20,943 nucleotides of DNA from Dunaliella salina. Its lineage: Eukaryota > Chlorophyta > Chlorophyceae > Chlamydomonadales > Dunaliellaceae. A program made the position numbers and the translations under genes. Location of the stretch: the NCBI GenBank assembly GCA_002284615.2, contig MU069739.1:295898-316840 (forward strand), written 5' to 3'. Positions within the stretch are counted from its first letter, which is position 1; each line of letters opens with the position of its first letter. The notes below the pieces were generated by a model. It had not been told where the DNA came from. It worked only from the letters and a program-made list of their open reading frames with translations, and searched no databases. Shown here one piece after another: positions 2,940 through 19,270 of the stretch.

Positions 2940-3430
2940 TGCTTTTTGAAAAGGATCCGTGCACTTTGCACATTCCTCACAGACTTCCTGGCTACGCCAC
3001 ACATCAGGGCAATGATGAGCAAGGTGGCCAGCTTTGCAGCAGCATCAGGCGGCAGGGGCAGCACCTGCTTCGTAAAACGTTTTGTGCGCCTTGCACATTC
3101 CTTGCAGGCTCCCTGGCTACACCACACACTAGGGCTATGATGCCTAAGTTGGCCAATTTTGCAGTATCAGGGGCAGTACTGGCTTTTAAAAAAAACTCCA
3201 TGAGTCCTGCAACATATTCCTTGCAGGCTCCCTGGCTACACCACAGACCAGGGCAATTGTGCGCAAGGTGGCCGCGTTGCAGCTTCACCAAGCGGCAGGG
3301 GGAGCACCCGCTCTTTAAAAACGATGTATGCGCCCTGTACATTCCTCGCAGGCTCCCTGGCTACTCCACAGACCAGGGCAATGGTGCGCAAAGTGGCCAG
3401 CTTTGCAGCATCATCAGGCGGCAGGGGCAG
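2940..3430 (+). repeat. About 125-bp tandem array, four units carrying repeated acceptors
   Basis: CTGGCTAC recurs at 2988, 3113, 3232 and 3357 (periods 125, 119, 125). Each unit has a CATTCCT(T/C)(G/A)CAG-like acceptor, then (G/A)CT(C/T)CCTGGCTAC, then a GGCAGGGGCAGCACC-type segment. The last unit is continuous with the candidate exon 3352-3507; the earlier units carry degenerate copies of the same exon start. Confidence 0.93.
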
Positions 3431-3507
3431 CACCCTGCCACGAGTGAGCGAGGAGCTGCCACCACCACCCCCGTGCAGCACCAGCAGGAGCAGTAGTGCT
3501 GGGGCAG
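3352..3507 (+). CDS. Candidate 156-nt exon, Ser/Pro-rich
   Basis: It is bounded by the acceptor ATTCCTCGCAG (ending 3351) and the strong donor GCAG|GTGAGG at 3508. Both flanking introns would be phase 1, and 156 nt is a whole number of codons, so the exon could be skipped or duplicated without a frameshift. The 52 residues include RKVASFAASSGGRGSTLPRV, a Glu-Glu-Leu then Pro5 run, and a Ser-rich end. No known domain is visible. It is the last and most intact member of the 125-bp array. Confidence 0.45.
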
Positions 3508-4078
3508 GTGAGGTTGCAGACAGATCTGATGTGCATCCAAAACGATGGTGACAAAAACATGATTCATCCCAGGAGGGTGGAAAAAAAAGTAATGACGTCA
3601 TGACTTCTTCGAGGGTGGGACCCCTGACCCACCCACCACCCCTCAAACCTTCCTTCCTGTGCCCCAATCCAAACAACAAGGGTACCAATTTTTGCCTGTT
3701 TCGATTCTGCATCCTTGTGCGCATTCACGGCACTTAAAAAGTGTTTTGCAGCAGATTTATCAGGCAAAAGCTGAGCAGTGGACGCCCATGCATTCCTGTC
3801 CTTCAAGATACCCACAACTGGCTTGCAAGTCCACAAACAACCCTCTTGACTGCACCATGCGATAAAGCATCCTACCTTGTCACTATCCTGCAAGTTTGCA
3901 TTTGCTTGCCACATTTTTGCCTCTGCACCCCTTGGGACCTACAACCATGCACATACAGCACTAACTTGATGATGATTCATGCACAGAGACCCACACTTTT
4001 ACATGATTTGCTTGACCAAGGTGCCAATCAACAGTCTTGAGCCAAGGAAGCCGATCAGGGGGGTGTCACTGGGCCTGT
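3508..4078 (+). other. Probable intron; contains a TGACGTCA palindrome
   Basis: No gene is recognised. A perfect CRE/bZIP-type palindrome TGACGTCA lies at 3593-3600, within the 10-bp palindrome ATGACGTCAT. Inside a probable intron this may be chance. Confidence 0.35.
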
Positions 4079-4412
4079 TTGGGGGGCTGAGCATTCCATA
4101 ACTTCTGTTATTTGGGGGCTGAGCATTCCATAACTTCTGTTATTTGGGGGCTCAGCGTTCCACAGCTTAACTTCTATTACTTGGGGGCTCAGTGTTCCAT
4201 AACTTCTGTAATTTGGGGGCTCAGCGTTCCATTACTTAACTTCTGTTGTTTGGGGGCTCAGCGTTCCACAGCTTAATTTCTGTTATTTGGGGGCTGAGCG
4301 TTCCATAACTTCTGTTATTTGGGGGCTCAGCGTCCCATAACTTCTGTTCTTTGGGGGCTCAGCGTTCCATAACTTCTGTTATTCGGGGGCTCAGCGTCCC
4401 ATAACTTTTCTG
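4079..4412 (+). repeat. 32/37-bp minisatellite, ten units
   Basis: GGGGGCT blocks begin at about 4082, 4114, 4146, 4183, 4215, 4252, 4289, 4321, 4353 and 4385. Spacing alternates between 32 and 37 bp; the longer units have a 5-nt insertion (CAGCTTAACTTC versus ATAACTTC). The unit core is GGGGGCTCAGCGTTCCATAA, followed by CTTCTGTTATTT. Confidence 0.95.
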
Positions 4413-7553: not shown

Positions 7554-7666
7554 ATTCCATCGCTACATTCCTGGTGAGGCCTCTAGCTTTCCAGTTTGGG
7601 GTCCTTCCCTTAATGCACGTGGCCTCTGGCTTGTGTAGACTTCACTTTTTCTATTCCATCGCTACA
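7554..7666 (+). mobile_element. Copy G: 85-bp retroelement 3'-UTR insertion with 14-bp TSD
   Basis: The 14-mer ATTCCATCGCTACA occurs at 7554-7567 and 7653-7666. The 85 bp between them match the 3' UTR of copy B: CTGGTGAGGCCTCTA, CTTCCCTTAATGCACG, GGCTTG(T/C)GTAGACTT, then a pyrimidine tail CACTTTTTCT. No coding sequence is present. It is an extremely 5'-truncated target-primed insertion, or a tiny non-autonomous element consisting of little more than the 3' hairpin. Confidence 0.88.
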
Positions 7667-7769
7667 AACATGGCTTGTACAGGGCTTACAGGGTTTAGAT
7701 AAGAAAAGAAGAAAAGAAAAAACTATGTGCGCAGAGAAAAACTCCCTACATCAATTGGGGAAATGGAGA

Positions 7770-7796
7770 CACACTGGCTTGAAAGAGAGCCATGTG
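7770..7796 (-). other. 3'-UTR hairpin of copy A
   Basis: On the + strand CACA (7770-7773) pairs with TGTG (7793-7796), and GGCT (7776-7779) with AGCC (7788-7791), leaving a 2x1 internal loop. Copy C has the same architecture at 15253-15279. Confidence 0.6.
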
Positions 7797-8567
7797 CCCT
7801 TTCCACCACAAGGTATGAAAAAGAGAATGCTAATGTGGATCTGGAGGATTACTAGAAGCACCTGGCTCTATAATCTGACAATGGGGAGTATTCTTGTTTT
7901 CAATAGCGCGGCGTGTGGTGACTAGTTTGCAGGCATTTTGAACAGAATGGGCATGAAGTTGTTGAGCAAGCTTTGTGGCACGCTGGTGATCCAATCCTAG
8001 ATGTATGAGTTGCTTCAGGGTATGCTCAGTGTAAATAGTTCCACCTACACCCAGGAGAACAGGGTTAATTGTGATAGCTCTAGCGTTAATAAGTTTACAA
8101 AGTTTTGCATGCTGCTGCTTTGCCGCATCCAACTGATGCTCTGGCCTTGTGTCTTCACAGACCTTGATTTCTATTAGGTGCACATGGCGTTCATTTGCAC
8201 GAAGTTCATGGGGTTGCCTCATGCGACTAGCTCTGGTGGTCCTCCGCGAGGAGCTGCGCAAAGCGTGATGGGAATGGGTGGGAGAAACACTGCTAGAAGT
8301 ATATTTGGTACCAAAAGGGATGAACAAAACTTTTGTTGAACAGCATCTGGTCGACTGGAGTTGAGTCTTCTCCTCTCTGGAAGGTTACGAGGGAAGAAGT
8401 AAGCAGGTGAAGTTCTGTTTGAGGCATGTGCGGGAAGCTGGAGGTTGTGTTGAGCAAGCTTAAAATCGCTCCCTATGTCTGTGTATACTAGGCCTGCCCC
8501 AACAGGGCATTCGCTGAGGGCTTTTGTAATCATTCTGCCTGCAATGTTATGGCATTCAGTTTCATGT

Positions 8568-8780
8568 TGGAGATGAGAGGAAAAGGAAAAGGAAAAGGGA
8601 AAACTACGCGGGAGTTGCCCCCAAGCATCACTGAACGAACAAACGTGGCACCCAGAAAGGCCGGCCGTAAAGAACTCCCATAGAATCAAACCATGTAATG
8701 TAAACCCTAAACCCTAAACCCTAACCTCCGCGTACCTTTGGGGATGTGATTCATATGAACCACACCAGGTTCCTGGAGAT
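8568..8780 (-). mobile_element. Insertion H: 199-bp element with telomere repeats, 7-bp TSD
   Basis: Comparison with copy C shows extra sequence in copy A between two copies of TGGAGAT (8568-8574 and 8774-8780). On the minus strand the insert ends in CCGCGTAGTTTTCCC plus about three CTTTTC-type units, similar to the 3' end of copies A and C (ACGTAGTTTTTC plus TTTTC repeats). A weak GGGGG-CAA-CTCCC hairpin precedes this end, and three TTTAGGG repeats lie inside. It is probably a short retroposed element (SINE-like, or the 3' end of a third subfamily). The internal Pol III boxes of a tRNA-derived SINE are not convincingly present. Confidence 0.75.
8701..8725 (-). repeat. Interstitial telomeric repeat (TTTAGGG)3
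   Basis: Three AAACCCT units plus partials are present on the + strand. TTTAGGG is the Arabidopsis-type telomere repeat found in land plants and many algae. It lies inside insertion H and not at a chromosome end. Confidence 0.93.
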
Positions 8781-9240
8781 CATATCGCATAGGCAGCCTG
8801 AGATCATGTGTAGTGCGCTGTCCAAATGATGCCAGCCTGGGAGGAGGCAAGATGGACCAGTTGACCTTTTAAAACGTACTGCATGTTTTCGGTTGTAGAG
8901 GGTGCCTGTGCGGTACTGCAGGATGGTGCGCTTCATGGGCACAGGAATGTTGGGTTTCATCTGCTTGCGGTAATCAGTTTTGATAGTAAGAGTAGTAGCC
9001 TGTTTTGGCATTGGCATATCCAAGCTTGTCTTTAGTATGCATGTGGGATTTGAGGGCATCTTGAAGATTGGGAAAATAGGTGAGCTTGTGGGCGGGTGGT
9101 GGACCCGCAGATGTGCCTGCAGCATGCACTCTTTCTTCCTTGGCTAACCAGAAAATATTCGTAAATGAATTTCCACCAGGACCTGCACCAGGAATCTCGG
9201 TGCCTGCCACGCAGTTCTTTGCTTGCTTTGCCTGATGTTT

Positions 9241-9597
9241 TCAGATTGGTTTACAAGGTTTACAAGGGAACATAACTTTCTGCCAGAAAGCTTGGTTGCT
9301 CGGTGTGGTGAAAGAAATTCATAAGCTCAGAGATGAAGCGATAAGTCTGAGTATCTTGCTTTTGAAAAAAACGAGCTACATCCAGAGAGCAGGAATCAGA
9401 AAAAAAGAAAGATACTGTATCATCTGACACTACTCTGTGAGCAGGAAAGGCACTAAAAAGGTGTGCATACTTTCTTCCAAGACAACATAGGAAGTTGCAA
9501 GGGCAGAGAATGATGACGTACTTTTCATCCTGCCATTGTTCTCAAACACATAAATCACATTTAGGTGCATGTCCATGCCAACGAAAAGTTTCAATCA
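9241..9597 (-). pseudogene. Fragment E: C-terminal zinc-finger end of a different LINE
   Basis: Minus-strand translation, with a few stops, gives KCDLC (about 9549-9562), then DEKYVIILCPCNFLCC and KYAHLF, then about 40 residues on VARFFQKQDTQTYRFISELM. The pattern C-x2-C...D-E-(H/Y)-V-I-x2-C-P...L-F matches the zf-RVT-type knuckle closing many LINE polyproteins, with Tyr in place of His. Two TTGTAAACC words near 9247-9268 look like poly(A)-signal sequence at its 3' end. It is heavily decayed. Its sequence is not homologous to copies A-D. Confidence 0.5.
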
Positions 9598-10216
9598 AAG
9601 TTTATGGGCATGCAATCGGAAGCAAGCAATGTTCCTCTGCATATGCCTACCCATCACCAATCCTACTCCACCTTCCTATCCTATGCAACTCATCGTTGTG
9701 TGGAACACTAACGCCAGAGAAATATTAGATACCGCAAACAAAGACTGGTTTCAGTCCCTCCAGCGAGGTGTAAAGCAAGTTACACCAGAAGCTTGCTGGC
9801 TACCTTTGGATTCTCCAAATACTGTCACGCCGCTGCGTACCCACCAACACCTTGTATCAAATACTTGAAAACAAAAATTCCAATCACTCCCCCCTGACAC
9901 CCATAGCTGCTCACACAAGTGCCCTCAGGAAAGGGCAGAATTCACCCCTGCCAAGTACAAAAAGACATTCACGCCCAAAATCAAGGATTGGAGGGAAATG
10001 ACCTACACTGACGGCAGTGTGATCAAACACAAAGATGATGATTCCCCACCACTATCAGGCTCAGGTGTTAACAAACCAGGAAGAGACATTACTCAACCTT
10101 CTCAACACTTACAAATACACATAAAACACAATGGCCATGGGCCTACCAATACCATCACCAGAGCAGAACTTGTGGGTATCCTTGTGACACTCCAACACGA
10201 GCAAACTGAGATTGCC

Positions 10217-11358
10217 ACTGATACAGCTTGGGTGGCTTGTCCCCTCAGACCCCCCCCCCGGCATGAGCAAGAGCAGCACGGGCCACTTCAATGGCCCCAA
10301 CACGAGCCCCGGCAAGAGCAGCAAGAGTAGGAGCGTTACCAGGCTTTGCATGAACAGCAACGGAGAGGGCTAGAGGGGCACAGGCGCAGCCAGGGGCCTC
10401 TCCAATGGCACACTACGCAAGGCCACCTCAGCCTCTCTTCCAAAAGCTTCACAGTCCGGCAAGTTACGGCTCTACAGCTCTCCTCGGAGCGAGCAGCAAG
10501 GCAAGCAGCCTGGCTCCAATACGCTTGCTCAGCAGTCTCCCTTGCTCCAACCTCTCTTCCTGCGCCCGACCCGTCTCCCCAAGCCAACCACCCCATCCAG
10601 GACCTCCCGAGCAGGACCAATGAGGTGTGGAGGCTCCGTTGGGATAATAAGTGGAAGGAGATCTGGTGGCGGTTGCTCTTGCATGGGGTCCCGGGTGCAG
10701 GGGGCCATGGTATCGCCTGGGCCAGAGGTTCGGCGTGTGCTTGTGGGTGGCAGGCTGCGAATGCAGCCGGCTGTGAAGTGCGTGCCCTTCAACAGAGGGA
10801 GCATGTCTTTTGGACATGTCCCCGTGCCCAAGCAATAGTGGATGTCCTGGTTGAGAACCTGCCTCCTGGCACTACCGTGCTCCCAAGCATGTGTGGTTGC
10901 TTGTGCCTCCTTGCCCTAACATGAACGAGCGTGTTTGGTGGGTAGTTTGTCTGTGCTCTTTGAACTCGGTGCGAAAGCTTCGATATGACCTCTCACAGGA
11001 CCTTAAGGAGCAAGCTCAAGTCTTCTTGGTTGAGGGTTTGATAGATTTTATAGCTTGCCAAGGGGGGCAGTCCCCCTTGGCCAACGCTCTCCGCCAGGAC
11101 CATCCTTTCATTGCTTCTGACCAGAGCTCGAACTTGGTCTTAAGACTTGCGTCTTAGGGCAGTGGTCTGTGTCTTTGCTTCTTCCTTCTTTGGTGTGTAG
11201 GTGCGTGCGTGTCTCGTGTGCGCCCCTCCTTCTCTCTCTACCTTTGGACTTGCGCCGGCCGCTCTTTCTCTTTGTTTAGGAGCCTTCCTTCCTCTAGCAG
11301 AGGCCCTCTAGGGACATCGCCATGTCCTTGGGCACATGTAACCCAAAAAAAACTGATA
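10217..11358 (+). mobile_element. Insertion I: 1128-bp 5'-truncated poly(A) LINE inside the RNase H of copy B
   Basis: ACTGATA occurs at 10217-10223 and 11352-11358 and flanks 1128 bp. Removing the insert and one repeat rejoins the RNase H reading as A-T-D-S-A-S-C-L-F, restoring the third catalytic Asp motif. The insert ends in TGTAACCC plus seven A (11345-11351), typical of target-primed insertion of a polyadenylated transcript. It carries the C-terminal part of an unrelated LINE. Confidence 0.9.
10346..11157 (+). pseudogene. LINE C terminus with zf-RVT-like region inside insertion I
   Basis: The frame 10346-10924 reads NEVWRLRWDNKWKEIWWRLL, then a Gly/Cys region ending REHVFWTCPRAQAIVDVLVE. 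The W-R-L-L-L-H-G-V-P and E-H-V-F-W-x-C-P pattern is that of the zf-RVT zinc-binding domain after LINE reverse transcriptases. A one-base shift near 10885 moves to the frame ending at 11157 (HVWLLVPP, then VWWVVCLCSLNSVRKLRYDL). Only the end of the protein is present, as expected for a 5'-truncated copy. The reverse transcriptase itself is absent. Codon use is more GC-rich than in copy B. Confidence 0.65.
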
Positions 11359-12880
11359 GTGCATCCTGCCTTTTTTAGATTTCTAATGAAACCCTTAACC
11401 TGATGCGCATGAGGCATCACCTACACGCAGAGCTCATTCATGCAATATCAACCATATTAAAGCACTCCCCTCATCCTATCCATTTTTACAGAGTTAAAGC
11501 CCACTCTGGCATCATAGGAAATGAGGGGGCCGACGCTTGCACTCGCACCGCAGCCCTCTCTCACGCCATAGACATTGCACTTCCAGATGCCAGGGACCCT
11601 TTCCACAATTTCTATTGGCTTTCATTGAAGACCTCTTCCACACAAAATGATGGCATGCACCGCTCCCACACGCTTCCGATGCACTATCTCACCAACCTGA
11701 GCGACAAACTTGAAACACACATGCACAAGAAACACAAGCTTGGCTCTGCTAACACCTCTGGCTACCACTACCAGAGATGGCAGAAGCTTGACGGTGCAAC
11801 ACCACCCACCACAAATACAAACACTGAAGAGTACAACCCAACCCCTCAACTTGCAAACAAGGAGATCAGCAACTCCTTTTGGAAAAGCCCAAAGATAACC
11901 CTTAAACAGCAAATAAACCTTCTGAAGAACCGAACGGTTACACTGTACACACAGAGTCATGCCTCCAACTTCAACTTTTCCAGATCTGATAGATGCCCAC
12001 TCTGTGCAAATACGGACAGCTTTTATCACGTTCTGCTTAGGTGTACCAACCCAACAATGAGTGGGATGCACACCAACAGACACCATGCGGCCCTTAGTCT
12101 CTGTGTAGAAGCCCTGAGTAGAGGCCGGTATGGCTCATCCCTCATTAGCATGGATGGCTGCAATCATGACAGACTTCTGGACCAAGGCATACAATCCCTG
12201 AAAACACCTCTCGAGCTATTCCAGATCGGGTCTTCCCAAATTACATTGCCTCACCTGCTCGGCACCAAAGCCGCCCTGATGCTCTTTTTGTGCGCACCAT
12301 CCCAGGCAGACAAGCCCACCTTGATCCTACCAAGACCCCCCCAAAAGATAGGGATATTCACCTCGTCGAACTTAAATTCTGCCCTGACACAAATCCCTTC
12401 ATCACTTTAGAACGTGCACGGACTCAACATTCCCACACCATAACTAGACTTAAAACACGCAGCTTAAAAAACCCAAAAAGGAATAACAAAGTGACTCTGC
12501 ATACCATCTTAATTGGTGTGGGTGGCACGATTTACAATGAGCTAACAATGCCACCTCTCATAAATCTGGGTCTAACCAAACAGAAAGCCAAATCACTAGC
12601 ATCCAAGCTCAGGGACCATGCCATCCAAAGATTATCCACCATCATTAACACTAGACATGCACTTTGCTTTCAGAGGGCACCTGGGAGGGGGTTTGCTGGG
12701 CGCGCGGCGGCGGCTGAGGATGGAAGAAGGAGAGTCCTAGCGCTCAGGGGCATGGCCAGCAATCCTCCAGATCCCCATTAGTTTTCTCTCTTGCTCTCTC
12801 CTAGGCTAATTTTGTCTAGTCTAGGTGGAAAGCCTCCTGGTGAGGCCTCTAACTTTTGTTAGGGGTTCTTCCCTTAATGC

Positions 12881-12900
12881 ACGCGGCCTTTGGCTTGCGT
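12881..12900 (+). other. 3'-UTR hairpin of copy B
   Basis: ACGCGGCC-TTT-GGCTTGCGT folds with ACGC/GCGT and GCC/GGC pairs around a small internal loop, just upstream of TAGACTT and the tail. Copies F and G have the same element. Confidence 0.6.
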
Positions 12901-13165
12901 AGACTTGTCTTTTCTTTTCCTAGGAGTATAAAGGAGTATAAAGAGGTTTACCAAGAGCAGAATTATGCCGGAAGGGAAGCGCTACCCAGCTATGATACTT
13001 GCTAACTTGTTTAAATGAACACCATGTTCAGCCTGATCCTCAGGTGGCCACATGCTCCTATGCCTTTTTTATAAATCAACCACAAAATCATTTATCCAAA
13101 TGGGCTGGCCTGAGTACACGCAAAGTGTGAAGTAGTTGCGTCTGTCCAATCCCTGAAAACCAATT

Positions 13166-14611
13166 GCATCTGCACATTCATTTCCAGCGATGCCAGCATG
13201 GGACTTCACTTCGCAAATTCGTTTTGGTACGGAAGTCTCTAATGAGAGTTGAAATCATTTCAAGGACTTCTCCTTGGATATGCCTCAGGTGTTTCTCAGG
13301 AAAGAAATTGTTTACATATTTGTTCGAGAGAGGTGAGGCTGTCTGATGCAATGTCTGCATGTTTGGTAATGACAACAGCAGCAATTGCTGCCAATTCAGC
13401 TCGAGCGATGGCTTTAGTAATCCCAGCACTGTTTGGTTGTACAAGGTTCTTGCTGTCAGTGGACGGGTAGCAGATGCCTGCTCCAATTTATTGCTCACCG
13501 TTATGGACAAGGCAGCTGCCATCTGTGTATGCCCATGTCCTCCAACCAGCAGCTTTGAGAGTAAGGAGAGTACTGGATTGGCTGGGCACTAAGTCTGTAT
13601 CTTGGATACTCATGTGTGAATAACTAGGCTGCTTGGAGACGTGTTGTTTTTCAAATGGGAGGCGTTTCATTTTATTGAAACCTGGCATGTGAGCATGCAT
13701 GGGATTTAGGAGAGGGTGGCTGCTGACATTTGTCGGCTTCCACTCTGTGGCTTCTTTCGAACCTCCTTTAAGCCCCTGTAGCCAGTCTTTGCTATGGTTG
13801 TTGAGATGAACTCGAGCTGCAGTGTTCCAAACAGCGAAGTTACGAAGGCCCCAGGTATGCTGTGGTAGAGGTGTGTCTTGTTTAGGGCAGGATTGAGGGG
13901 CACTGTAACCAAGTTTTTCGCGAGGTATGGTTCCAAGATCGTAACAGAGGTGGGGGTAGGCAGTGACAAGTTTGGAGGAGGGGTTGGTTATCATTTTCTT
14001 ATTCCAAGCCAGAAGGAACACAAATGTAGCAGTGGCTTCTGTGTTGCAAATGGCAGAGTAAATGGCATGTTGCAAAACTTGGGTCAGATGGGATGGCAGA
14101 CTGAGAAGCCCGAAAATTTGGATGAGAAGGCATTATGCATGGCACCAAAAAGAGTGTCTCGGGAGTGCGCACTCCAATAATTCTGGTACTGTGGTTGTGG
14201 TCTGGTGAGGAAGCCATTTTTTCTTGGGCTACCAAAGCCCATTATTGGAGGGCAGTATGGATGTGAGTTGGAAAGGCTCGTAAAAAGGAGTCTTTGATCT
14301 GCTTGCTCAAGTTTTTTTTTTTTTCAAGCATGGATTTGCGGGAAAGGAGCCCTTGCAGCTTAGTAACAAAGCTGCCAGGAGCTGGTGTTATTTTCTCGTG
14401 CGCGCCAGCAAGCTTGGCCCCATAAAAAGCCCTGAGAAGGATTTAAATTCCAAATCCTTTAAATTCCAAATTTGGAAGCGGTTCAGGGATATCATGTCAA
14501 CACATTTGCCTTGCATATCATGGTTCGGGGTATCATACCAACACATTTGCCTTGCGTACTATGGTTCGGGGGTATCATACCAACACGTTTGCCTTGGGGT
14601 TCCCCTTTCAG
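13166..14611 (-). pseudogene. Copy D: internal fragment of a subfamily I element (linker and RNase H)
   Basis: On the minus strand it aligns with copy C from GAKLAG...LLSRKSMLEKK through AWNKKMITNPSSKLVTAYPH and FAVWNTAARVHLNNHSKDWL to RNase H (TYTDGSCLVHNGEQ, then A-E-L, A-S-D-S and N-E-C-A-D-A). Homology stops abruptly at 13166, just past the last catalytic Asp, so the zinc knuckle, nuclease and 3' UTR are missing. It retains about 100 bp (13998-14095) that copy C lacks. It has an expanded A/T run at 14313-14325, in-frame stops and frameshifts. No TSD was seen; a recombination or deletion remnant is likely. Confidence 0.78.
14487..14611 (+). repeat. 41/42-bp triplication at the end of copy D
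   Basis: TATCAT(A/G)(C/T)CAACAC(A/G)TTTGCC recurs about 41 and 42 bp apart (ATCAT at 14491, 14532, 14574). Copy C has a single copy near 17740, so the expansion happened in copy D. Confidence 0.88.
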
Positions 14612-15180: not shown

Positions 15181-15252
15181 AAAAGAAAAGAAAAAAAAAG
15201 AAAAACTACGTATGCAGAGAAACTCTCCCTACATCAATTAAGGAAGAGGAGA

Positions 15253-15279
15253 CACATTGGCTCAAAAAAGAGCCGTGTG
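15253..15279 (-). other. 3'-UTR hairpin of copy C
   Basis: On the + strand CACA-TT-GGCTC, loop A6, GAGCC-G-TGTG: a 5-bp inner stem and 4-bp outer stem separated by a 2x1 internal loop. Copy A keeps the outer stem and four inner pairs, with a different loop. Confidence 0.65.
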
Positions 15280-15312
15280 CCCCCTCCACCACAAGGTATG
15301 AAAAAGAGAATG

Positions 15313-18300
15313 CTAATGTGGATCTGGAGGGTTACTAGAAGCACCTGGTTCTAGAACCTGGCTGTGGGAAGTATTTTTGTCTTCAATAGCGCGGCGTGTG
15401 GTGACTAGTTTGTGGGCATATTGTACAGAATGAGTATGAAGTTGTTGGGCAAGCTTAGTGGCACGCTGGTGATTCAATCCTAGTTGTTTGGATTGCTTCA
15501 GGGTATGCTCAGTGTAAATAGTTCCATCTACACCTAGGAGAATAGGGTGAATTGTAACAGCTTTATCGTTAATAAGTTTACAGAGGTCTGCATGCTGCTG
15601 CTTTGCCGCGTTCAACTGATGTACTGGCCTTGTGTCTTCACGGAACTTGATTTCTATCAAGTGCACATGGCGTTCATTCGCATACAGTTCATGGGGTTGC
15701 CGTCCACGCCTAATCCTGGTGGCCCTCCACGTGGACCTGCACAAAAGATGCTGTGTTTGAATGGAAGTAACATTGTGAGAAGTTGGCTTGGCATTAAGAG
15801 GGGTGATCAAAATAGCATCTGGTCGACTTGTATTGAGTCTTTTCCTTTCTTGAAGGTTACGAGGGAAAAAGTGAGCAGGTATAGTTCTATTTGAAGCATG
15901 TGTAGGGAGTTGCAGCTTATGTTGTGCAAGTTTGAAATCGCTTCCAATGTCTGTGTAGACCAGGCCTGCTCCTACACAGGGCTTTTGCTGAGTGCTTTGG
16001 TAATCATTCTGCCTGCAATGTTATGGCGTTCACTTTTCATGTTGGAGATGATATGGTTCTGGCAGCCTGAGAGCATGTGAAGTGCGCTATCCAAGTGATG
16101 GCAGCCTGGAAGGGGGCACATTGGGTCAGAAGACCTTTTGAAACGGACTGCATGTTTTTGATTGTAGAGGGTGCCTGTGCGATACTGTAGGATGGTACGC
16201 TTCATGGGTACAGAAATGTTGGGCAAATGTCTGAAGGCATTACTGATTTTTTTATCTACTTGCGGTAACAAGTTTTGATAGTAAGAGTAGTAACCAGTCC
16301 TGGCATTGGCATATCCAAGCTTGTGTTTAGAATGCATGTGGGATTTGAGGGCATCTTGAAGATTGGGGAAATAGGTGAGCTTGTGGGCGGGTTGTGGACC
16401 CGCAGATGTGCCTGCAGCATGCACTCTTCCTTCCTTGGCTAACCAGAAAATATTCGTAAATGGCTTTCCACCAGGACCTGCACCAGGGATCTCGGTGTCT
16501 GCCACACAGTTCTGGGCTTGCTTTGCCTGATGCTTTGCAATGGCATCTGCACATTCATTTCCAGCGATGCCAGCATGGGACTTCACTTTGTAAAATCGAA
16601 ATTTGGTATGGAAGTCTCTAATGAGCGTTGAAATCATTTTAAGGACGTTTCCTTGGATATGCCTCAGATGTCTTACAGGATAGAGAAGCTGTTTACGTAT
16701 TTGATTGATAGAGGTGAGGCTGTCTGATGCAATATCTGCATTTTTGGTAATGATAGCAGCAGCAATTGCTGCTAATTCAGCTCTAGTGATGGTTTAAGTA
16801 ATCCCGGCACCGTTTGGGTCTACAAAGTTCCTGCTGTCAGTGGACGGGCAGTAGACGCCTGCTCCAATTTCTTGCTTACCGTTATGGACAAGGCAGCTGC
16901 CATCTGTGTATGCCCATGTCCTCCAATCAGCAACTTTGAGAGATAGGGGAGTTCTGGATTGGCTGGGCACCAAGTCTGTATCTTGGGTTCTCAAATGTAA
17001 ATTTCTAGGGTGTTTAGAGACGTGTTGTTTGTCAAAAGGGAGGCGTTCCAGTTTACTGAAGCCTGCCATGTGAGCATGCATGGGATTTAGGACAGGGTGG
17101 CTGCTGACGTTCGTCAGCTTCCACTCTGTGGCTTCTTTCAAATCTCCTTTCAGGCCCTGTAGCTAGTCTTTATTATGATTGTTGAGATGAACTCGAGCTG
17201 CAGTGTTCCAAACAACAAAGATACAAAGGTCCCAGGTATGCTGAGGTAGAGGTACCTCTTGATTAGGACATGATTGAGGGGCACTGTAAACAAGTGTTTT
17301 GCGAGGTATGGTTCCAAGGTTGTAACAGAGGTGTGGGTAGGCAGTGACAAGTTTGGAGTAAGGGTTGGTTATCATGTTCAGACTGAGAAGCCCGAAAATT
17401 TGGATGAGAAGGCATTATGCATGGCACCAAAAAGAGTATCTCTGGAGTCCGCACTCCAATAATTCTGGTATTGTGGGTTGTGGTCTAGTGGGGAGGCCAT
17501 TTTTTCTTGGGTTACCAAAGCCCAATTTTGAAGGCAGTATGAATGTGAGTTGGAAGGGCTCTTGAAAAAAAGTCTTTGATCTTCTTGCTAGAGTACTTTC
17601 TTTCAAGCATGGATTTGCGGGTAAGAAGTCCTTGCAGCTCAGTGGCAAAGCTGCCAGGAGGTGGTATCATTTTCTCGCGCATGCCAGCAAGTTTGGCTCC
17701 ATAAAAGCCCTGTAGAGGATTTGGAAACGGTTAGGGGATATCATACCAACACATTTGCCTTGCGTATTATATATGCAAGCCATGTGTGCCTTGCAAATTT
17801 CTGGGAGAATGAGGGGTGTTGGAGTAGGGGGGGAACGGCTGTGGGATCCTGTGTCAGGTGATACTGGATAAGGGGGTTGCTCATCTGTGTATTTTACGAG
17901 GTCAACCTCACGCAGCCAATATTCGCATGAGCTCGTAGGTTTATGTCTGCTTGTGGATTAGTGGGTTCAGTATCGAATGTGATTTTGTTGCGCAATTCTG
18001 TGTCCAATTTTTGCTGCCACACATTGGTTACATTAGGATTTTCAAAGCCTTGTCTTTCAAGATCTGAGAGGGTAGAGTCTGTTTTGGGTGTTGAAAGGTT
18101 AGGCTCGCTTTGTCGTGCTTCAAACTTAAGCAAACACTCTTTGAATTTAGGCCACGCCTCCTGTAAATCCTCTGATTCCCAAGAGGGTTTCCAAGTGACC
18201 CTCCAGAGTTCTTGCTTTGTCTGTCGCTCTCTATCAGTTTTTTGGGCATCATTTAGGCTTGCACAGGCGGGGCATGCCCATGTGTTAGCCGCTGCAATTT

Positions 18301-18486
18301 CTTGTCTTTGCTCATCCGAGTATCATCCAAGTTCCTTCATGCATTCCCAATGGTACGTCCGGTGGCACACATCACAATATAAATAAGTGTACACATATAC
18401 ATAGTGCAAGAAGAGCATGTGAAAAGCAATTTAGCATCAGTTGTAATTTGTTTCAGGTTTATTGGATCCTTGTCTTTCAGGCTGGA
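15313..18486 (-). pseudogene. Copy C coding remnant: PHD - linker - RNase H - CCHC - PD-(D/E)XK
   Basis: RNase H residues are clear on the minus strand: T-Y-T-D-G-S near 16900, A-E-L near 16777, A-S-D-S near 16725, and FYKVKSHAGIAGNECADAIA near 16541-16600. The knuckle is CPLPGCHHLDSALHMLSGC (C-x4-C-x7-H-x4-C). R-P-D-A-I is at 15817-15825 and HVHLIEIKF with E-I-K at 15646-15654, followed by PILLGVDGTIYTEHTLKQSK and the end SNPPDPH. Between PHD and RNase H are about 400 codons (for example KPSWESEDLQEAWPKFKECL, GKCVGMISPNRFQILYRAF, AWNKK-less MITNPYSKLVTAYPH). No reverse-transcriptase YADD-like box is visible. Damage includes a TAA just after G-A-G-I-T, a 2-nt shift near 15975, a stop in the PHD finger and frame changes near 17700-17900. 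Confidence 0.78.
18263..18417 (-). other. PHD zinc finger remnant in copy C
   Basis: Zinc ligands in order on the minus strand: C-S-S-C (18406-18417), C-D-V-C (18365-18376), H-W-E-C in YHWECMKELG (about 18341-18355) and W-A-C-P-A-C (18263-18274). The spacing C-x2-C...C-x2-C-x4-H-x2-C...C-x2-C is the C4HC3 pattern of PHD fingers, which read histone H3 tails. One frameshift separates the first pair from the rest, and a TGA follows KELG. PHD fingers have been described in ORF1 of some CR1-like LINEs. Confidence 0.65.
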
Positions 18487-18507
18487 GAGGGTCCACTATG
18501 GGTAACA

Positions 18508-18945
18508 ACAGGACACAGTAAAGTAAAGTAAAGTCTACGCTGGTACTTACCAGCGTGCATTAAGGAAAGACCCAACAGTTAGCACTGGCACTAACAGTGA
18601 GCCCCACCAAAGAAGGCTAGCTATGAGCAGCCCAGCTAATGAGGGTCCGGCGGGTCGTCGCCCATCCGTCCGGCTGCGCGTCTCGCTGTCCTGTGCACAG
18701 ACCTCCCTGTAGGCCCCTCCCCCAAACGCCCATTGCTTACGTTACTGAATTGGATGGCATTTTTGATGTTGTGAATTTTTGTTACGGACTTTACAGCATG
18801 ATAGTGGAGTTGTTTGGCAGTTTTGTGTGCTTTGTCTTTGGTTAGGCCAAGTTTGCAGAGGGGATCAATAGTGTAGGGATTGAAGATAGTCCCTGCAACT
18901 CCAATTAGTATGGTATGTAGTGTGACTTTGTTATTACAGGACACA
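18508..18945 (-). mobile_element. Copy F: 418-bp 5'-truncated subfamily II insertion with 10-bp TSD
   Basis: ACAGGACACA occurs at 18508-18517 and 18936-18945. Between them, on the minus strand, are the last 101 codons of the protein (NNKVTLHTILIGVAGTIF, closing GDDPPDPH at the 18636 stop). A 3' UTR with the subfamily hairpin follows, then the tail (CTTTA)3. It resembles copy B more than copy C. The coding part is undamaged over its whole length, suggesting a fairly recent insertion. The upstream GCAACC-free frame starts exactly at the TSD. Confidence 0.9.
18537..18556 (-). other. Perfect 3'-UTR hairpin of copy F
   Basis: ACGCTGGTA-CT-TACCAGCGT (+ strand) is a perfect 9-bp stem with a 2-nt loop, next to the CTTAATGCACG-like block and the tail. 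It is the cleanest version of the subfamily II hairpin. Confidence 0.75.
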
Positions 18946-19270
18946 ATCAAATATCAAGCCCTACAAAGCCTCCAGGATGCTCAAGAAAAGCACACAAATG
19001 CCATGAACAGCTAGTGTATCAAATACTCATCTGGAAAAATGGAGCCACATCATGCGCATTCCTTTTGGTCCCATTTGCGGGTTGTGGGCACTGTCTTAGG
19101 ATCGATGTGCAATTGACCCATTCTGCAAAATAGGCTTATTCGAAGAAAAAGTGTACTTGCAACAGAACTCTAAAAAAATGTTTTCAGAACCTCAGAAAAT
19201 ATTGACATCACCACATGCCATCCAATTTAGCAACTCAAACAACGGAGACGTTTTTAAGTTTTGAACTCTC
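18946..19270. other. No gene recognised
   Basis: A short + frame (YQALQSLQDAQEKHTNAMNS near 18953-19012) looks helical but is only about 20 codons long before a stop. Nothing else is supported. Confidence 0.35.

Follow-up and report, generated by a model that had tools for sequence, protein, structure and literature searches.

We analysed a 20,943-nucleotide stretch of the Dunaliella salina genome (contig MU069739.1; hereafter the window) and, within it, the minus-strand retroelement remnant that we call copy C. Copy C is a dead, 5′-truncated copy of an element that carries a reverse transcriptase (RT), and it ends inside a PHD finger. Classed by domain plan, the family of copy C would be an autonomous Dualen/RandI-type retrotransposon of a green alga, lacking long terminal repeats (non-LTR). 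Its protein would run in the order APE endonuclease, RT, PHD, PCIF1/CAPAM-like domain, RNase H, CCHC knuckle and restriction-like endonuclease (RLE), with an N-terminal Josephin-type cysteine protease in some relatives; we put the probability of this anatomy at about 0.85. Sequence comparison indicates that selection has kept the CAPAM-like domain, which lacks the canonical catalytic tetrad; we propose below what it might do.

Copy C and its contents

The limits of copy C and of the domains it retains are as follows.

15181..18385, minus strand: copy C, a 5′-truncated, decayed long interspersed nuclear element (LINE), probably of Dualen type (blastn to genomic copy L021 and depth profile)
~18240..18376, minus strand: PHD finger, C-terminal half, CDVCHRTYHWECM...CPAC (translation; tblastn)
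17260..17975, limits approximate, minus strand: PCIF1/CAPAM-like domain remnant (tblastn with protein P0001)
16524..16913, minus strand: RNase H with the residues D-E-D-D, interrupted by a stop in frame at 16794 (sub-threshold Pfam RNase_H matches in pieces)
16062..16118, minus strand: CCHC knuckle CPLPGCHHLDSALHMLSGC (translation; family profile against R2)
15316..15825, minus strand: restriction-like endonuclease region, RPD...EIK to SNPPDPH (translation, alignment, model)

On translation, the coding sequence is scattered across three frames of the minus strand and interrupted by stops. Copy C aligns by blastn to L021 at 94% identity over 15186-17379 (2.2 kb) and 17379-18385 (1.0 kb), and its 3′ tail, read from the sequence, is TTTTC-like on the coding strand at ~15181-15210. 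The domains are not chance resemblances, because of this identity and because, across the genome (285 Mb in 1403 contigs), 150 of 150 scored candidates, out of 9531 first-look candidates, match the RNase H-CCHC part at E <1e-128.

A first-pass annotation of the window had read in copy C a PHD finger followed by RNase H, CCHC, RPD...EIK and a PPDPH end. Translation upholds the last four, but the PHD finger is represented by its second half alone. Residues 827-970 of P0001 and 549-692 of P0002 align by tblastn at 17942-18376; the first Cys pairs of the finger are absent, with the 5′ truncation at ~18380 (blastn, tblastn). The RNase H motifs TDGS, RAELAAI, ASDS and GNECADA supply D-E-D-D. Pfam RNase_H scores E 0.002 and 0.05, under its cut-off, on the broken pieces of copy C, and 4e-14 (in L035), 1e-13 and 7e-15 on longer same-family copies; the domain is whole in L021, L025 and L035. 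In the nuclease region, RPD...IEIK lies at 15646-15825 and the SNPPDPH end has its stop at 15313. The P-D and E of the RLE are invariant in 21 of 21 aligned rows, and the best match of the predicted model of the L021 RLE region is the R2 endonuclease. Copy C also lacks ~115 bp at 17379, including the equivalent of the NPPF loop (blastn gap; alignment row L038).

The reverse transcriptase lies upstream of the PHD finger

We compared 20 genomic stretches, 19 of 9.9 kb plus the window's own 7.2 kb, which form a non-random sample picked mostly for long open frames among the listed matches. The 3′ part is common to all 20 copies and the depth drops stepwise upstream, with a start point that differs between copies. 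This stepwise loss upstream of a common 3′ end points to 5′ truncation as in LINEs. In the longer copies Pfam RVT_1 is found upstream of the PHD finger (E 5.6e-23 in L033 and 3.9e-10 in L025, with a weak tail match of 0.016 in L035), the RT has a FADD motif, and in the copy on contig C1264 an APE endonuclease (PF03372, E 8.3e-7) lies further upstream than the RT. Two further open reading frames (ORFs) upstream of the APE ORF on this contig, possibly outside the element, matched no Pfam family.

Copy C has no RT because the RT sits upstream of the PHD finger, beyond the truncation point. The first-pass annotation had expected the RT between PHD and RNase H and had offered two explanations for its absence there. 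That the RT was lost in this copy is correct as an outcome, but the loss came by 5′ truncation. The other explanation, an RT-less partner element mobilised in trans, fits copy C taken by itself; we regard it as very improbable, given that a normal RT is present in other copies of the same family, that the differing start points leave no fixed RT-less form, and that copy C is one of many 5′-truncated copies. More improbable still is a PHD segment that derives from an unrelated host exon adjoining copy C. Although copy C starts within the finger, in L021 and L035 one open frame runs through the PHD segment (whole in L035), the CAPAM-like domain and RNase H, and likewise in the related proteins P0009, P0011 and P0026. 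The Pfam PHD matches are below cut-off in the Dunaliella copies (0.98 in L035 and 0.4 in L025, while L021 gives no match up to 1), and the finger (C4HC3), with its complete set of Cys and His residues, is clear in P0026 (E 8e-8) and P0011 (3e-7).

Relatives and the full domain order

Three protein searches returned 21, 7 and 49 matches, partly overlapping. PF12237 is present in 15 of the 21; for the 49, precomputed annotation gives PF12237 in 31, RVT_1 in 45 and both in 27. One D. salina protein is among the matches (84% identity across 13% of the query), and most other relatives are metagenome records. P0011 and P0026 are single proteins in which APE, RT, PHD, the PCIF1-like domain and RNase H come in this order, with CCHC and a PD...E[IVL]K site after them; in both, as in P0009, the RT is N-terminal to the PHD finger. 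Pfam also matches APE in P0012 and P0006. This plan of APE, RT, RNase H and RLE, found in longer copies and relatives, bears out the original assignment to RLE-type non-LTR retroelements, among which Dualen had been named. When compared with the PDB, the family profile matches R2 proteins best (E 7e-17) and also RNase H1, PCIF1 and PHD proteins; phmmer with P0002 alone gave no PDB match at 0.1. Josephin (PF02099) is annotated in seven Haematococcus lacustris proteins, and in P0066, which was scanned, it precedes APE, RT and RNase H.

Several of the matched records deserve separate mention. The H. lacustris proteins P0063-P0066, P0068, P0070 and P0073 (2901-4408 amino acids; Josephin, APE, RT and RNase H) are 'hypothetical proteins' that resemble LINE proteins recorded as host genes. 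LTR-element-type domains are additionally annotated in P0061, P0067, P0069 and P0072. In P0046 (4078 amino acids) a peptidase of Ulp1 type (PF02902) and an OTU match under the threshold lie upstream of APE, and no Josephin is listed, so that P0046 and the Josephin-bearing relatives have cysteine proteases of different kinds within one element lineage. P0027-P0029, three of the seven matches of one search, were rejected as elements: they are KDM5-type demethylases, with only 10-18% of the query matched.

A constrained CAPAM-like domain with an altered motif

The ~400 codons between PHD and RNase H had been described as unrecognised sequence, but are recognisable as PCIF1/CAPAM-like by Pfam and by comparison of sequence and fold. 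The match spans residues 417-668 of human CAPAM, including the FASPLN signature, and the next-best fold rows after CAPAM are likewise adenine-N6 methyltransferases. A tblastn search of phage records with the domain gave no match.

At the aligned position of the catalytic motif, the canonical [DNS]PP[FYW] occurs in 0 of 70 proteins. Instead, the rows read NPEY (29), NVPA (12, from Haematococcus where named), HPIY (4) or other forms. These 70 rows come from 75 proteins (those without a row are P0015, P0027-P0029 and P0073) and are non-independent, since two of them are copies from this genome and there are Haematococcus rows that hardly differ from one another. Among the 20 Dunaliella copies, 17 reach the motif place; 15 have CHPIY, L025 has CQPIY, and in copy C the motif is deleted.

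The ratio of nonsynonymous to synonymous change among genomic copies is 0.23 in RNase H, followed by the CAPAM-like domain (0.34) and CCHC-RLE (0.35), and is higher in PHD (0.50) and in the linker that precedes RNase H (0.54). The values were computed from 20 copies, pseudogenes in part, whose pairs are non-independent; codons containing a stop, a gap or N were left out, as were short-overlap pairs, leaving 6 to 190 pairs per domain (6 for the part before PHD). Among nine relatives, mean pairwise identity is 44% for RT, 40% for RNase H, 35% for the CAPAM-like domain, 31% for CCHC-RLE, 29% for APE, 26% for the PHD-to-CAPAM-like stretch and 25% for PHD (21 of 36 pairs). It falls to 15% in the linkers that precede PHD and follow the CAPAM-like domain. 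Taken together, the two sets of values show that the CAPAM-like domain is constrained like the other functional parts, and the PHD finger less clearly so.

A possible reader of the capped transcript

Our tentative proposal, with a probability of about 0.35, concerns a widespread lineage of dual-endonuclease LINEs, whose hosts are green algae where they are named. This lineage would have acquired a cap methyltransferase domain, inactivated or remodelled the catalytic loop (to NPEY and variants), and retained the domain to read the cap at the 5′ end of the element's own RNA. Full-length capped RNA would then be recognised during target-primed reverse transcription, and this domain and the PHD finger together would let the protein read both the template cap and the target chromatin. 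A cap- or RNA-binding role of the domain, taken on its own, has the same probability.

By analogy with known LINEs, the element would most likely spread by target-primed reverse transcription. APE, RLE or both would nick the target DNA, the RT would copy the element RNA from the nick, and RNase H would remove the RNA; incomplete reverse transcription would leave 5′-truncated copies such as copy C. The PHD finger probably aids targeting to chromatin. The CAPAM-like domain might bind the capped 5′ end of the element transcript, or RNA or an RNA-DNA hybrid, and so serve template selection or 5′-end completion in the manner of a pseudo-methyltransferase, without the usual cap methylation.

An alternative is that the CAPAM-like domain works as a methyltransferase with a different motif (NPEY or HPIY) and modifies the element's own RNA (at a cap-adjacent or internal A) or DNA, which might, for instance, protect the transcript or mark new insertions. 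The fold lies near that of adenine-N6 methyltransferases, the domain is under purifying selection, and an excerpt of a review describes PCIF1 activity on single-stranded RNA, RNA/DNA hybrids and DNA (PMC10544176). However, not one protein has the canonical motif, His replaces Asn in the Dunaliella family, NVPA stands in 12 of the 70 rows, and the same excerpt gives N553 and F556 mutants as the standard inactive forms of PCIF1 (PMC10544176). We consider an active enzyme unlikely. As far as sequence can say, non-catalytic RNA or cap binding is somewhat more likely than altered catalysis.

Several observations weigh against the cap-reader proposal or the anatomy beneath it. NPEY, the commonest motif form, retains the Asn, the first Pro and the aromatic residue, and is compatible with activity. 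The match is limited to human CAPAM 417-668, which leaves the 7-methylguanosine pocket outside the comparison; the Foldseek TM-scores of the predicted structure to CAPAM are modest (0.36-0.46), and the first 60 residues of the domain are poorly modelled. The Haematococcus relative P0066 has no PCIF1_WW match at 0.01, yet is aligned by the family-derived profile. Finally, none of the Dunaliella copies read spans APE to RLE in a single intact frame; the domain plan in this species is assembled from ORFs of a contiguous broken copy on C1264 (L042, L025) and from relatives, and the copies read stop short of the element 5′ end.

If the assignment is right, a large Dualen-like LINE group has, between RT and RNase H, a zinc finger of chromatin-reader type and a relative of the enzyme that makes N6,2′-O-dimethyladenosine (m6Am) at mRNA caps. 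How LINEs recognise their own full-length RNA, and how the 5′ end is completed, can then be tested directly for a dependence on the cap, and a supposed RT-less element becomes an ordinary 5′-truncated copy.

Nested copies and neighbouring sequence

Three further pieces of related elements lie in the window, the first of them in two parts.

13159..14570, minus strand: second same-family copy, 5′ part, PCIF1-like to RNase H (tblastn, P0001 residues 1017-1481)
7704..9246, minus strand: second same-family copy, 3′ part, beginning at P0001 residue 1480 and ending with PPDPH (tblastn, P0001 1480-1722 and P0002 1199-1606; blastn)
~9654..12931, plus strand: family B, a related element (~29-36% identical) nested in the second copy (tblastn, P0001, P0002, P0003 and P0005 at 9671-10288 and 11316-12778)
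~18500..18950, minus strand: third related family, a 3′ fragment ending DDPPDPH with a TTTAC-type 3′ repeat tail (tblastn, P0002, P0003 and P0005 at 18639-18950)

The separate copies of the first-pass annotation are thus not all independent: by blastn and tblastn, 13159-14570 and 7704-9246 are one copy, split by later insertions. One inserted element, at 9248-9653 and 12932-13068 and nearly contiguous in L023, is itself split by family B, which is 5′-truncated near the end of its PCIF1-like domain and interrupted at ~10290-11315.

A block resembling the TTTAC-tail region of the third family recurs at 7594-7649 and 12858-12913. The segment 19260-19580 is AT-rich, with many ATTAAT/TTAATT words around a C-run, and looks palindromic by eye. 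Short tandem arrays occur at 4055-4399, 265-754, 2389-2683 and 2941-3434, with periods of ~32/37, 98, 120 and ~120-125 bp.

Comparison with known systems

Dualen/RandI non-LTR retrotransposons were reportedly described from Chlamydomonas by Kojima and Fujiwara in 2005. A cysteine protease is a Dualen feature, and some relatives of copy C have one in the form of Josephin. The two groups have APE, RT, RNase H and RLE in common, as well as green-algal hosts where these are named, and Dualen/RandI elements encode both APE and RLE in the part of the published account consulted (PMC4640811). What the copy C family adds, between RT and RNase H, is a PHD finger and a PCIF1/CAPAM-like domain. In the portions of text searched by term, the word PHD is absent from PMC8226300 and PMC4640811, and PCIF1 from PMC8226300; both domains may be present but unnamed in Dualen-type elements. 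Among papers judged by their titles and the opening lines of their abstracts, none was found with a PCIF1/CAPAM domain in a retrotransposon. The Dualen-type plan is already known, and the PHD and CAPAM-like insert was found in no paper by these literature searches.

With R2-type RLE LINEs the family shares the order RT, CCHC, RLE, and both its profile and its RLE model match R2 best; it differs in adding APE, PHD, the CAPAM-like domain and RNase H. The cap-specific adenosine-N6 methyltransferase PCIF1/CAPAM (PDB 6irv-6is0) resembles the element domain in sequence and predicted fold over human 417-668. In contrast to the enzyme, the element domain lies within a retrotransposon protein, its NPPF is replaced (NPEY, HPIY, NVPA and others), and the N-terminal half of PCIF1/CAPAM is unmatched, with no WW match in the Pfam scans besides the misnamed PCIF1_WW. 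The CAPAM family in this way gains a natural series of altered active sites, from NPPF to NPEY, HPIY and NVPA.

Pseudo-methyltransferases of the METTL14 type have an adenine-N6 methyltransferase fold with an altered catalytic tetrad. The element domain is like them in both respects, although it belongs to a separate family and RNA binding on its part is our proposal.
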